The notes under the pieces are model-generated. The model saw only the letters and a program-made list of their open reading frames with translations. It was not told the origin of the DNA and ran no database searches. From the NCBI GenBank assembly GCA_019348255.1, contig JAHWJU010000006.1:1-55071 (forward strand): 55,071 nt of DNA, in the 5' to 3' direction. Within the stretch, counting starts at the first letter, position 1. The number at the start of each line of letters is the position of its first letter. The position numbers and the translations under genes were made by a program. This document shows, piece after piece, positions 1,719 to 44,446 of this stretch. This DNA comes from Actinomycetota bacterium. Lineage in GTDB: Bacteria > Actinomycetota > Acidimicrobiia > Acidimicrobiales > CADCTF01.

Positions 1719-3440
1719 ATGCCGGGACCGCAGAGAACCGTCACCGCACCGCTGCGCGTCTGCCGCGGCCTCGGATACGACCAGCTGGCCATGGTGGTGG
1801 CGGCCGATGCAGTGGTGCGCCGCTCGTGGTCCCAGGGCAGGCCGGCGGAGCTCCTCATCCCTGCCGTAGGTGCGGACGGAGCGGCCCGCTACCAGTTCGA
1901 GCGCGAGCTCAGCCGGGAGGGTCACGATCGCGTCACCCTTGGTCCTGACGCCTACGAGCAGCGGGCCGCGGCCTTCGTTGACCAGCGGATGGCGGCGGTC
2001 TCAGAGGTGCTGGCCGGTCTCGGGGTGGCCTGCTCCCTCACGGAGGTGTCGACGGCGTCGCCGGAGGTGGTGCGAGCCAGTCGGACCGCGTTCGTGACTC
2101 TCTACGAACAGGGGCTGATCGAACACAGCCAGCGGGTGGTGCTGGGCTGCCCACGGTGCCGCACGCCGCTCGACCGGCTGGACGTCGAGGAGGCGCAGTT
2201 GGAGGGGGAGCGCCTGACGCTGTCGGTTACCACGAGCGACGGCCACGAACTGCTGGTGGAGACCGATGCGCCGGAGTTGCTTCCGGGGGCGGTGGCGGTG
2301 CTGGTTCCTGCCGGCCATCCTGCCGCGGGAGGCGAGGCGGTCGTCCCCGTGGCCGCCCGGCAGGTTCCGGTCCTGGAGAGCCCGGAGGACACGGCGGTCC
2401 GCTTCGTGGTCGCCGCCCACGATGTCGACGCCCACGAGCTCGTGCTGCATGCCGGGTTGCCGATGGTGCCGGTGTTCGACGGCTCGGGGGTGGTCGGCGC
2501 ACCCGGGCCGCTCCACGGCCTCGGCCGCTACGCCGCCAGAGCCGCGGCCCGCCAGCTGCTCGTCGCCGAGGGTGTCGTCGTGGCGGCCCAGCCCGGGCTC
2601 GAGCAGGTGCAGCGGTGCGGGTGCTGCGGCAGCGTGGTGGTCCCGCACCTGGGGTGGCACTGGTTCCTGCGCTCGGGGGAGATGGACGTGGGAGCCGGCG
2701 ATGCGGTGCGCGACGGGCTCATCAGCTTCGTCCCCTCAGATGCCCGCGAGGAGTTCCTTGCGGTGGCCGCGGTGCGGCGCGACTGGTGCCTCAGCTCGGC
2801 GGTGGCCGGAGGGGTAGCGGTCCCCGCAGCGCGCTGCCTCGATTGTGGACGCCTGGCGGTGGAGACAGAGCCGACGCTGTCCTGCGGTGGCTGCATGGGG
2901 CCGTTGACGGCGGAGCAGGAGACTCTGGATTCCCGCTTCGTCGCAGCCGTGTGGGCATTGGTGCTGGGGGGTTGGCCGCAGCGGAGGGCGGCAGGCAACG
3001 ACGGCCACGAGGCCGCTGCGGTGGTCGCCGGGCAGGATCTTGCTGGTTGGGTGCTCCCGGCCGTAGCCCTCGGGCTGCGGCTGGCCGGCACCAGCCCCTT
3101 CTGCCGGGTGATGGTCCACCCGTGGCCGACGCCGGTGGATCTCCACGCTGGGTCATTCGTCGACGACACGATCGACCGGCGGGTCCGCCGCCTGGCTCTG
3201 GTCGAGGGTACCGGCGACCTCACGACGGCGCACCTGGCTGTTGAAGCTCTCGACCAGCCCGAGGCTGCCTGCGGTGATGACCCAGAGGCGGCGGCCGACG
3301 CGGCCGCGGCCTTGGCCGCACTGGGGGAGGAGGCGCCTCGCCACGCCGCCGGGCGTCTTGCAGCGGCGCTCAGAGCCGGCGTACCCGCTGAGGCGGCCGA
3401 GCGACTGCGGGCGATGGCGCTACCCATCCTGGGCGAATAG
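1719..3440 (+). CDS. Degenerate valyl-tRNA synthetase-like protein lacking catalytic signatures
   Basis: This 573-residue protein occupies the position between clpX and folC where many actinobacteria carry valS. Class I synthetase features align end to end with ValRS: EREL near residue 60, LYEQGLI and CPRC near 135-147, a CP1 editing-like segment, RDWCLS near 354, the zinc cysteines (CGCCG, CLDCG, CGGCMG) and an LDSRFVAAVW stretch resembling LDTWFSSALW. The ATP-binding HIGH motif reads about GYDQ (residues 19-22), and where KMSKS should lie (about 470-485) there is no lysine. The anticodon-binding domain and C-terminal coiled coil are absent; ValRS is usually near 850-900 residues. Aminoacylation is therefore unlikely. 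Possible roles are trans-editing, tRNA or amino-acid sensing, or decay in progress. ATG 1719 is preferred over TTG 1707. An active valS must lie elsewhere. Confidence 0.8.
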   Translation: MPGPQRTVTAPLRVCRGLGYDQLAMVVAADAVVRRSWSQGRPAELLIPAVGADGAARYQFERELSREGHDRVTLGPDAYEQRAAAFVDQRMAAVSEVLAGLGVACSLTEVSTASPEVVRASRTAFVTLYEQGLIEHSQRVVLGCPRCRTPLDRLDVEEAQLEGERLTLSVTTSDGHELLVETDAPELLPGAVAVLVPAGHPAAGGEAVVPVAARQVPVLESPEDTAVRFVVAAHDVDAHELVLHAGLPMVPVFDGSGVVGAPGPLHGLGRYAARAAARQLLVAEGVVVAAQPGLEQVQRCGCCGSVVVPHLGWHWFLRSGEMDVGAGDAVRDGLISFVPSDAREEFLAVAAVRRDWCLSSAVAGGVAVPAARCLDCGRLAVETEPTLSCGGCMGPLTAEQETLDSRFVAAVWALVLGGWPQRRAAGNDGHEAAAVVAGQDLAGWVLPAVALGLRLAGTSPFCRVMVHPWPTPVDLHAGSFVDDTIDRRVRRLALVEGTGDLTTAHLAVEALDQPEAACGDDPEAAADAAAALAALGEEAPRHAAGRLAAALRAGVPAEAAERLRAMALPILGE

Positions 3441-3446
3441 GCGCCT

Positions 3447-4751
3447 GTGGACTTCGCCGAGGCGCTGCGGTGGTTGGACGAGCGGATCAACCTCGAGTCG
3501 TCGGTCGCACCCGCTGCCGAGCTCCCTCGGACGCCGCCCCGGCTGGACCGCATGGTGCAGCTCGTGGGGTTTCTGGCCGACCCGCAGCAGGCGTACCCGG
3601 TCCTCCACCTCACCGGGACGAACGGGAAGACCTCGACGGCGAGAATTCTCACCCGGCTGCTCGAGGTGGCCGGTCTCAGCGTCGGCACCTACACCAGCCC
3701 CCACCTCGAATCGATCACCGAGCGAATCGCCTGGAACAGCGAACCCATGGACCAGAACGCGATGGCCGCCGCACTGAGCGCGGTCGCGTCGGTGGTGCCG
3801 TTCATGGACGAGCCTCCCACCTACTTCGAGGCCCTCACGGCAGCCGCCTTCCGCTGGTTCGCCGAGGTGGCGGTGCACGCGGCGGTGGTGGAGGTCGGCA
3901 TTCTCGGGCGATGGGACGCCACCAACGTCGCCGAGGCTCAGGTTGCGGTCGTGACGAACGTCGGCGCCGACCACCTCGACTACGCCGGCAGCCGGGAGGC
4001 GGTCGCCCGGGAGAAAGCCGGCATCGTCAAACCCGGCAGCATCCTGGTGCTGGGCGAGACGGACCCCGAGCTGGTCGACATCTTCGCCGCCACCCCGGCC
4101 GAGGGTGTCTGGTTGCGTGGGCGCGACTTTGCGGTGGTGGAGAACCTCCTGGCTCACCAGGGGCGCTCCATAGGCATTCGCACGCCGGGCGCGAGCTACG
4201 AGGACCTGTACCTGGGTCTGCGGGGAGCTTTCCAGGCCGACAACGCGGCGATTGCGCTGGCCGCGGCCGAAGCATTCCTCGGAGTCCCACTCGAGGAAGG
4301 GCTGGTTAAGGAGGCGTTCCTGACCGTGGGTTCGCCGGGTCGGCTGGAGGTGATGAGCCACCAGCCCCTGTGCGTGCTCGACGGGGCCCACAATGCGCCA
4401 GCGGCGGCCGCACTCGGTTCCGCCCTCGTTGAGGAGTTCGTAGAGCCCCGGAGGTGGACGGTGGTGATGGGGGTGCTCCGGCCCCACGACCCCAAGGAGC
4501 TTCTTGGTGCCCTCGACCTGGAGGGGGCCCGGGTCATCGCCTGCCGCCCCAGCTCACCACGAGCGGTCCCGGCAGCCGACATCGCCGCCGCCGCCGCCGG
4601 GTTGGGGTTGGAGTCGGAGGCCGCAGGCTCTCCGGCCGAGGCCGTCAGCCGCGCCCTCGCCCTCAGCACCGCCGAGGATGCCGTGCTGGTGACCGGTTCG
4701 CTCTACGCCGTGGGGGAGGCGCGCAGGGCGCTGCAGCAGGGCCTGGGTTGA
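3447..4751 (+). CDS. folC: Folylpolyglutamate synthase / dihydrofolate synthase
   Basis: FolC adds glutamate to dihydropteroate and/or extends polyglutamate tails on folates, using ATP in the cytoplasm. The 434-residue length is typical. The Mur-ligase-type P-loop GTNGKTST is at about residues 57-64, [12 protein letters not shown] follows near 85, and DATNV plus [10 protein letters not shown] mark the central ATPase domain. The C-terminal domain has the LDGAHNAPA motif. The start is GTG 3447, six bases after the stop of the ValRS-like gene, so co-transcription is likely. A FolP2-like gene lies far downstream at 52.8 kb, but the other folate genes are not in the window. Confidence 0.93.
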
Positions 4752-42025: not shown

Positions 42026-44446
42026 ATGGTCGAGCCCTACGACGCGCAGGCAGTCGAGCGCAAGTGGCAACAACGTTGGGAGTCGGAGGGCACCTACGAG
42101 GTCGACAACGACGACCCCCGGCCCCCGTACTACGTGCTCTGCATGTACCCCTACCCGAGCGGCCCGGCCCACATGGGCCACGTCCGCAACTACACCTTCG
42201 GCGACCTGATCGTGCGCCACCGCACCATGCACGGCCACGCCGTCCTCAGCCCCTTCGGCTTCGACTCGTTCGGGCTGCCGGCGGAGAACGCGGCGATCAA
42301 GACCGGCGTGCACCCCCGCGTATTCACCGAGGAGCGCATCCCCGAGCTGACCGACAGCGTGAAGCGCATGGGTGCCGTGTACGACTGGCGGCGCGAGGTG
42401 CGCAGCCACGACCCGGAGTACATGCGGGCGACCCAGACCATCTTCCTCAGGCTCTGGGAAGCGGGGCTCGCCTACCGGGCCAAAGCTCCCGTCAACTGGT
42501 GCCCCGGCTGCCACACCGTCCTGGCCAACGAGCAGGTGCGAGCCGACGGTACCTGTGACCGTTCGGGAGACGTGGTCCAAAAGCGCGATCTCGAGCAGTG
42601 GTTCTTCAAGATCACGGCTTACGCGCAGGAGCTGCTCGACGACCTCGACGGCCTCGAGTGGCCGGAGCGGGTGAAGGTGATGCAGCGCAACTGGATCGGC
42701 CGGTCCGAGGGTGCCGAGTTCGAGATGGCGGTCGAGGGCACCGAGCACCGGCTGCGGGTGTTCACCACCAGGCCCGACACCAGCTTCGGGATGACCTATG
42801 CCGTCATCGCGCCCGAGCACCCGCTCGCGCTCGAGATCACGACGCCCGAACAGCGGGCCGCGGTGGAGGACTTCGTGGCTCAGGTGCGGATGGCCAGCGA
42901 CGTGGAACGGCTGTCGTCGGAGGGGCCGCTCGAAAAGCGCGGCGTCTTCACCGGCGCCCACGCGGTGAACCCGTTCAACGGCAAGCCGGTGCCCGTCTAC
43001 CTGGCCGACTACGTCCTCATGACCTACGGCACGGGGGCGATCATGGCCGTGCCGGCCGAGGACCAGCGGGACTGGGACTTCGCCAAGGCCTACGGGCTGC
43101 CGGTGGTGCGGACGGTGCAGCCACCCGAAGGTTGGCAGGGCGAGGCCTACCCGGGAGAGGGCCCCCGCATCAACAGCGAGTGGCTCGACGGCATCGTCGA
43201 CACCGGCGAGGCCAAGGCCAAGGCGGTGGAGTGGCTCGAAGCGGAGGGCATCGGCGAGCGCAAGGTCAACTACCGCCTGCGCGACTGGCTGCTCTCCCGC
43301 CAGAGGTTCTGGGGCTGTCCCATCCCGGTCGTGAACTGCCCCGACCATGGAGCGGTTCCCGTGCCGGAATCCCAGCTCCCGGTGGTGGCTCCCGACGACG
43401 TCGAGTTCCGGCCCACGGGCGAGTCGCCTCTGCGGTTCCACGAAGGCTTCCTCCGTACTACGTGCCCCATCTGCGGCGGGCCGGCCGAGCGCGAGACCGA
43501 CACGATGGACACCTTCGTCGACTCCTCCTGGTACTTCCTGCGCTTCTGTGACCCGCAGAACCGGCTGCTCCCCTTCTCCCAGGAGGCGGTCGAGCGCTGG
43601 ATGCCGGTCGACCAGTACATCGGCGGGATCGAGCACGCCATCCTCCACCTGATGTACGCCCGCTTCTTCACCAAGGCCCTGGCTGACGTGGGGCTGGGGC
43701 CGCCATCGTTGCGGGAGCCTTTCCGGCGGTTGTTCACCCAGGGCATGATCCGCATGGACGGGACCAAGATGTCGAAGTCGAGGGGCAACCTCGTCGGCCC
43801 CGGGCGCTACCTCGACACCACCGGTGCCGACGCGCTGCGGCTGTTCCACCTGTTCGTGGGCCCTCCCGCGGACGACGTCGACTGGAGCGACCAGAGCGAC
43901 GAGGTGATCGAGGGGTGCGCCCGCTTCTTGAGGCGGGTGTGGCGCCTGGCCCTGGAGCCGGAGCAGGCGGCACCGCCGCCGGCTGAGCCGGACAACGTGG
44001 AGCGGGCATCACACCGGGTGATCGCGCGCGTCAGTGACGAGTACGAACGGTGGTCCTACAACACCGCGGTCGCATCGCTCATGGAGTTCACCAACCTGCT
44101 CTACAAAGAAGGCGCCACCGACTTCGCCGTCGACACGCTGTTGTTGCTGCTGGCGCCCATGGCCCCCCACATCACGGCCGAGCTGTGGGAGAGGCGCCAT
44201 GGCGCCCACATCCACGCCCAGCGGTGGCCCACGGCTGACCCCACCAAGCTGACCCTGGAGTCGACCACCATGGTGGTGCAGGTCAACGGCAAGGTGCGCG
44301 ACCGCCTGGAGGTGGCGCCCACCATCGTCGCCGAGGAGGCGGAGCGCCTCGCGCTGGCGTCGCCCCGGGTCCAGGAGCTGCTGGCCGGCGCCCCACCCCG
44401 AAAGGTGGTCGTCCGGCCACCGAAGCTGGTGAACATCGTCCACTAG
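42026..44446 (+). CDS. leuS: Leucyl-tRNA synthetase
   Basis: LeuRS charges tRNA-Leu. The 806-residue protein is complete, with HIGH as YPSGPAHMGHVRNYT near 43-57, CPGC near 163, the CP1 editing domain with FTTRPDTSFGMTY near 246 and YGTGAIMAVPAEDQRDWDF near 335, and KMSKSRGN near 577, then anticodon-binding and C-terminal domains (VVQVNGKVRDRL near 755). It is a useful contrast to the ValRS-like protein at 1.7 kb, where the equivalent catalytic motifs are lost. Confidence 0.97.
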   Translation: MVEPYDAQAVERKWQQRWESEGTYEVDNDDPRPPYYVLCMYPYPSGPAHMGHVRNYTFGDLIVRHRTMHGHAVLSPFGFDSFGLPAENAAIKTGVHPRVFTEERIPELTDSVKRMGAVYDWRREVRSHDPEYMRATQTIFLRLWEAGLAYRAKAPVNWCPGCHTVLANEQVRADGTCDRSGDVVQKRDLEQWFFKITAYAQELLDDLDGLEWPERVKVMQRNWIGRSEGAEFEMAVEGTEHRLRVFTTRPDTSFGMTYAVIAPEHPLALEITTPEQRAAVEDFVAQVRMASDVERLSSEGPLEKRGVFTGAHAVNPFNGKPVPVYLADYVLMTYGTGAIMAVPAEDQRDWDFAKAYGLPVVRTVQPPEGWQGEAYPGEGPRINSEWLDGIVDTGEAKAKAVEWLEAEGIGERKVNYRLRDWLLSRQRFWGCPIPVVNCPDHGAVPVPESQLPVVAPDDVEFRPTGESPLRFHEGFLRTTCPICGGPAERETDTMDTFVDSSWYFLRFCDPQNRLLPFSQEAVERWMPVDQYIGGIEHAILHLMYARFFTKALADVGLGPPSLREPFRRLFTQGMIRMDGTKMSKSRGNLVGPGRYLDTTGADALRLFHLFVGPPADDVDWSDQSDEVIEGCARFLRRVWRLALEPEQAAPPPAEPDNVERASHRVIARVSDEYERWSYNTAVASLMEFTNLLYKEGATDFAVDTLLLLLAPMAPHITAELWERRHGAHIHAQRWPTADPTKLTLESTTMVVQVNGKVRDRLEVAPTIVAEEAERLALASPRVQELLAGAPPRKVVVRPPKLVNIVH

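Follow-up and report, generated by a model that had tools for sequence, protein, structure and literature searches.

Pseudoenzymes derived from aminoacyl-tRNA synthetases (aaRSs) are already known. HisZ, a paralog of HisRS, is the regulatory subunit of HisG, and SLIMP, a paralog derived from SerRS in insect mitochondria, acts in protein complexes; LeuRS-I and the halobacterial LeuRS2 are duplicates of a class I aaRS in which aminoacylation is lost or reduced. In the available part of the review of aaRS duplications that describes these cases (PMC9437257), ValRS does not occur (0 occurrences), and in the literature searched, with most subscription papers outside its scope, we found no description of a ValRS paralog of the kind reported here. 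A ValRS-derived pseudoenzyme in the ancestral valS slot is thus new as far as that literature goes. The protein, a degenerate ValRS-like protein denoted VRSL, is like HisZ derived from an aaRS, predicted not to adenylate and apparently kept for another role, which for HisZ is regulatory; HisZ differs in coming from HisRS and in having a known partner. Action in protein complexes, as in SLIMP, is also what we propose for VRSL. LeuRS-I still makes leucyl-adenylate, whereas VRSL has lost the adenylation motifs, and LeuRS2 keeps affinity for tRNA, whereas VRSL has lost most of the tRNA-binding part (PMC9437257). With bacterial ValRS itself (valS; structure 1gax) VRSL shares the core fold, the CP1 insertion, two zinc sites and the ancestral clpX-folC locus, but it is without HIGH, KMSKS, Asp81 and key editing residues, and it has neither the C-terminal end nor the greater part of the anticodon-binding region. 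To alt_ValS (NF000540) it is distantly homologous within the class I core; by contrast, alt_ValS is a complete enzyme from another ValRS branch and is encoded on another contig.

The VRSL gene occupies positions 1719–3440 of the window, by which we mean the whole 55,071-nucleotide stretch analysed (features are on the plus strand unless stated otherwise; G and L numbers denote genomes and loci). It encodes 573 residues from an ATG, with a TTG at 1707 as a possible alternative start. Pfam tRNA-synt_1 matches the protein at 1.1e-21, and T. thermophilus ValRS 1gax, the top entry by sequence, matches at 5e-33 by phmmer. The curated models expected to recognize a functional ValRS stay below their cut-offs, with 153.9 bits for PRK05729 (NF004349; residues 29–467; cut-off 704) and 141.6 bits for TIGR00422 (cut-off 612.1). 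Codon use is of the coding-gene type (GC3 0.85), although the CAI of 0.617 is the lowest among seven neighbouring genes (folC, 0.661). The first-pass annotation had described a ValRS-like protein in the valS locus, with a full, uninterrupted frame and normal codon use, and on each of these points the ValRS models, the 1gax match, the synteny and the open frame bear it out. Orthologs at 35–46% identity, in a conserved synteny, put the observation far beyond chance.

An AlphaFold2 model built on a 38-sequence alignment has a mean pLDDT of 91.8 and a pTM of 0.91. Foldseek places 1gax at the top, and VIA-align 2 superposes the model on 1gax with Z 33.7 and rmsd 3.5 over 567 aligned residues; its second rank is an IleRS, tied at Z 33.2. 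As in the ValRS superfamily, the predicted structure has a class I core with an inserted CP1, and a ValRS is the nearest solved structure. Because the whole model overlays residues 32–685 of the 862 in 1gax, VRSL is predicted to comprise the entire class I core of ValRS, CP1 included, together with a remnant of the helical region, which excludes its reading as a fragment. The first-pass annotation had reported the anticodon domain and about 300 C-terminal residues as gone; the full domain is indeed absent, with the match ending at 1gax residue 685, but the helical rudiment remains. We regard it as shown that VRSL descends from ValRS.

Catalytic residues were compared in an alignment of 16 VRSL rows with 56 ValRS-like rows, drawn both from Actinomycetota and from other phyla; counts are given against 55 ValRS, with the G019 row omitted. 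Equivalents of HIGH, Asp81, R216, D279, W456 and KMSKS are near-universal in these 55 rows. In the window gene, the tetrapeptide aligned to HMGH reads GYDQ (aa 19–22; 1773–1784); across the family the first His of HIGH is present in 3/16, the Gly in 1/16 and the last His in 5/16, as against 55/55 for each in ValRS. Relatives G015, G055 and G068 carry HLAH here, a half-way form. None of the 16 VRSL retains the KMSKS loop, which is either deleted or replaced, and the alignment puts its approximate former site at 3114–3128. These losses are predicted to remove aminoacylation. The initial claim that VRSL has neither HIGH nor KMSKS holds in that both motifs are lost, but the HIGH region is present and has been replaced. 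That intact motifs had merely been misplaced is ruled out by the alignment and the structure, the very comparison that the first-pass annotation had proposed for the HIGH/KMSKS positions and the CP1 pocket.

The amino-acid site has changed as well. Asp81, which we take to act in this site of ValRS, has its equivalent in 0/16 VRSL, and the position of W456 of T. thermophilus ValRS, presumably part of the valine pocket, is occupied in the aligned window gene by Arg406 (2934–2936), with Arg in 14/16 VRSL and Trp in 55/55 ValRS. VRSL could in principle sense valine, valyl-adenylate or tRNA-Val through its old binding surfaces and regulate something in response, and retention of the whole core fold, a Trp495 equivalent in 11/16 and a conserved Asp404 would suit such a role. 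It is nonetheless unlikely. The loss of Asp81, the arginine at position 456 and the missing HIGH and KMSKS speak against use of the old pocket, so that the valine sensor considered at first finds little room; a role in tRNA binding, including the tRNA sensor suggested alongside it, is opposed by the missing full anticodon domain and by an acidic, nearly lysine-free composition (0–4 Lys per protein, pI 4.3–5.0). The near-loss of Lys in the family is not accompanied by a clear increase in Arg.

For editing, we considered T214, R216 and D279, whose roles in ValRS editing we assume. The threonine-rich CP1 motif TTRPET is replaced by TDAPEL in the window gene (aa 182–187; 2262–2279), and the second CP1 motif, KVTPAHDPLD, by FVVAAHDVDA (aa 229–238; 2403–2432). 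The R216 equivalent is kept in 0/16 VRSL, that of T214 in 3/16, the window gene among these, and that of D279 in 4/16, with Ala in the window gene. Changes of T219 to Leu and at K270 were not counted as evidence for loss of editing because the complete alt_ValS has Leu at the first position and no Lys at the second. In IleRS, Thr241 and Asp342 are involved in editing (PMC9023258), and by our reading of the alignment they would correspond to T214 and D279. The residue losses have very probably removed editing from VRSL. A trans-editing factor, which the first-pass annotation entertained and which would here clear Thr-tRNA-Val, would be compatible with the kept CP1 fold and with a D276 equivalent in 13/16 VRSL; with R216 gone throughout, D279 and T214 mostly lost though the window gene still has its Thr, and an alt_ValS that carries its own TTRPE and Asp, we consider this highly improbable.

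That alt_ValS was found on another contig of the window's genome, at 1273 bits against a cut-off of 900, when an active valS was sought elsewhere as the first-pass annotation had advised. It is complete, with HIGH, KLSKS, TTRPE, the D279-equivalent Asp and DTW. Among 59 relatives, alt_ValS exceeds the cut-off in 51, including all ten VRSL genomes in that set, and it does so in 4/5 further VRSL genomes, which gives 14/15 in all; the sole VRSL genome lacking a match, G068, is 76% complete. The two genes lie on different contigs in all 14 genomes that have both. No second, bacterial-type ValRS was matched in VRSL genomes (three candidates scored per genome; the window's genome searched separately). 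Judged by sequence, then, the working ValRS of these genomes is the separate, archaeal-like alt_ValS. That VRSL compensates for an editing-deficient ValRS is ruled out by the TTRPE and Asp that alt_ValS keeps. Two other synthetase frames were seen along the way. G019, which also has alt_ValS, encodes on the minus strand of L051 (4848–7940) a full-length ValRS-like protein with HLGH and KMSKS in which part of the CP1 editing domain is deleted; it may be a further ValRS paralog, different in kind from VRSL and without editing. The window itself holds at 42032–44299 a class I synthetase frame of 809 aa with weak matches to ValRS models, presumably leuS.

VRSL scores above 300 bits in 15/397 genomes of the order, distributed over 10 families (the 59 relatives were searched first). 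The next matches reach no more than 147 bits, and most of them are frames of some 1050–1100 aa. Six of these were placed in the tree as ValRS; that of G007 has HIGH and KMSKS. The window gene's best identities to other VRSL are 41–46%. A pattern search with alignment matched 290 stretches, 200 of which encoded relatives; the best 80 of these 200 comprise eight VRSL loci (L085–L092, 35–47% identity) and 72 others at 26–32%, 19 of which, with frames of 878–1052 aa, entered the tree. No VRSL relatives were found in viral contigs, nor in named genomes with a single-protein query. About 100 C-terminal residues are missing from VRSL of G004 and G008, and an internal piece from that of G047. G055 contains two VRSL genes that are 90% identical, on separate contigs (L043 6413–8134 and L044 1–1518); perhaps two strains were binned together.

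In the examined VRSL contigs, as far as they reach, the order of genes is clpX, a small ORF, VRSL, folC, ndk and mreB; G004 and G047 showed no recognisable small ORF, and in G055 one contig shows clpX-VRSL and the other VRSL-folC. In the window, clpX runs from 3 to 1067, its 5′ end cut by the window, and adjoins a small helical ORF (1119–1655); folC (3447–4751) starts 6 bases past the VRSL stop codon. The small ORF, which is also present in the absence of VRSL, has a weak DUF883_C glycine-zipper match (22.9 bits, cut-off 27). Full-length bacterial valS lies between clpX and folC in G439 and G450, of the same class, and also in G398 and G421; in G402, G406 and G451 it directly precedes folC, and the retrieved sequence showed no clpX. 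In G412, also of the same class, alt_ValS stands between clpX and folC (L220 4905–7451, minus strand), and here the replacement of valS may have happened in place. Members of the order without VRSL whose loci were read have clpX and folC adjacent or separated by VRSL-free DNA, and the VRSL profile found no remnants in seven such clpX-folC gaps (best score, 2.1 bits).

Phylogenetically, the VRSL rows form a single clade (SH-aLRT 100), within which the window's end branch of 1.11 is the longest of 13. Three short or partial sequences (G047, G090 and G055b) were omitted from the ValRS trees and conservation lists; the ValRS-like row of G019, a very long one, fell near the root of the first tree with a long-branch warning and was left out of the later topology test. 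A tree that joins VRSL with the ValRS of G439 and G450 has a log-likelihood 7.3 above that of the free search (p-AU 0.66), and union with the order's other ValRS is also unrejected (p 0.24). The joint tree agrees with descent in place, with the long VRSL stem not firmly placed. The same pseudoenzyme might instead stem from a transfer or gene conversion into the slot, with the resident valS not its ancestor, as the long stem and the free tree would allow, the latter setting VRSL beside Gemmatimonadota ValRS at an unsupported 14/0. We think this rather improbable: the slot is the one that native valS occupies in same-class genomes, likelihood is higher for the tree in which VRSL joins native ValRS, and the G450 ValRS is the top match to the VRSL profile among the full-length ValRS frames examined, at 361 bits. 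In a tree of 32 genomes built from ClpX, FolC and MreB, the presence of VRSL needs 5 changes, a number that fits old presence with several losses, gain and loss not being distinguishable. Because its occurrence is so patchy, with 15/397 genomes and 5 changes on the tree, VRSL is dispensable in many lineages.

Where VRSL is present, codon comparisons show the family to be under purifying selection. By NG86, in pairs that exclude the window's own gene, dN/dS is 0.219 for VRSL of G015/G068 (folC 0.223, clpX 0.195) and 0.193 for the two G055 copies. For G010/G066 the value is 0.387 or 0.351 depending on which of two alignments is used (folC 0.194, clpX 0.027), and two more distant pairs give 0.385 and 0.535. 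Differences in the G015/G068 pair are distributed 80/62/228 over the codon positions, the third being dominant. The family thus combines lost catalytic motifs with purifying selection, as expected of an aaRS-derived pseudoenzyme, and the marks of a pseudogene, a disrupted frame or, in the pairs compared, a dN/dS near 1, were not seen. The first-pass annotation had judged the gene probably maintained and had named a dN/dS near 1 as the finding that would overturn this; the least diverged pairs lie at 0.19–0.22 and G010/G066 at 0.35–0.39.

Constraint has also shifted within the protein. Two putative four-Cys zinc sites are complete, the first formed by C144 and C147 (2148–2159) with C300 and C303 (2616–2627), the second by C373 and C376 (2835–2846) with C389 and C392 (2883–2894). 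All eight cysteines are present in 16/16 VRSL, compared with 36–53 of 55 ValRS per position, and the zinc-type cysteines noted at the outset are thereby confirmed. In VRSL these positions are kept more strictly than in active ValRS. Mean pairwise identity (11 rows each, near copies G068 and G066 omitted) is 0.37 for VRSL versus 0.71 for ValRS in the N-terminal Rossmann/HIGH segment, 0.60 versus 0.56 in the CP1 tail with its zinc half-site, and 0.56 versus 0.60 in the second zinc module. In addition, 24 columns are at least 90% conserved among 13 VRSL rows with a letter that is rare in ValRS; these near-invariant residues include R406 (13/13), L187 (13/13), H314 (12/13), M393 and D328, some of the set lying at old pockets. 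The pattern indicates that selection guards the scaffold of VRSL, most of all at its zinc ribbons and CP1 stalk.

Two further readings were weighed. VRSL might be a slowly decaying relic that does little, its frame open mainly because a G+C content of 70% makes stop codons rare; its scattered occurrence, with clean absence from other genomes, low CAI, the long branch of the window copy and the shortened copies in some genomes all point this way. The dN/dS of 0.19–0.22 in two pairs with predominantly third-position differences, the invariant zinc cysteines, the VRSL-specific residues and the confidently predicted fold argue against decay, and we hold it to be improbable. Alternatively, the near-invariant R406, H314, L187, M393 and D328 could belong to an enzyme whose remodelled pocket carries out new chemistry. 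We are more doubtful still of such an activity, as no new catalytic set is recognisable and the neighbours (clpX, folC, ndk, mre) include no adjoining biosynthetic gene.

The account we favour, and regard as fairly probable as a whole, is that of a pseudoenzyme formed in place after takeover by alt_ValS and retained as a partner-binding scaffold, putatively stabilised by zinc, or as a regulator. We infer that VRSL arose in situ, as opposed to by transfer into the slot, from the ancestral bacterial valS of a clpX-valS-folC-ndk-mreBCD locus, and that events ran in the following order. The archaeal-like alt_ValS elsewhere in the genome would have taken over the charging of tRNA-Val, after which the old valS would have given up its capacity to bind ATP and valine and to edit, along with most of the region that binds the anticodon, while purifying selection preserved the folded class I core together with CP1 and both zinc ribbons. 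Without catalysis of its own, VRSL would then serve as a scaffold or a regulatory subunit, its zinc-ribbon/CP1-stalk surface being where a partner, most likely another protein, binds. We favour a non-catalytic, partner-binding VRSL because selection guards the scaffold, and by analogy with HisZ and SLIMP. The parts of this account differ in strength: that VRSL is a pseudoenzyme is very likely, that its role is binding is reasonably likely, and that the partner is a protein somewhat less so. A role as regulator is possible. More tentatively, VRSL may represent a new regulatory class in which an essential enzyme, once replaced, has had its shell put to new use in place, in the manner of HisZ and HisRS. 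Constraint would have shifted away from the active site and onto the zinc-ribbon/CP1-stalk surface, and R406, H314, L187 and M393 would form a new site for a ligand or partner.

In practical terms, annotation pipelines may mislabel proteins of this type as valine--tRNA ligases. For the family, VRSL amounts to a natural experiment on what becomes of an essential enzyme once another version has replaced it: the old valS has kept its slot and its predicted fold and has lost its catalytic motifs, and selection appears to guard other parts. Should a partner come to light, the few aaRS pseudoenzymes known from bacteria would be joined by a class I regulator of ValRS origin.
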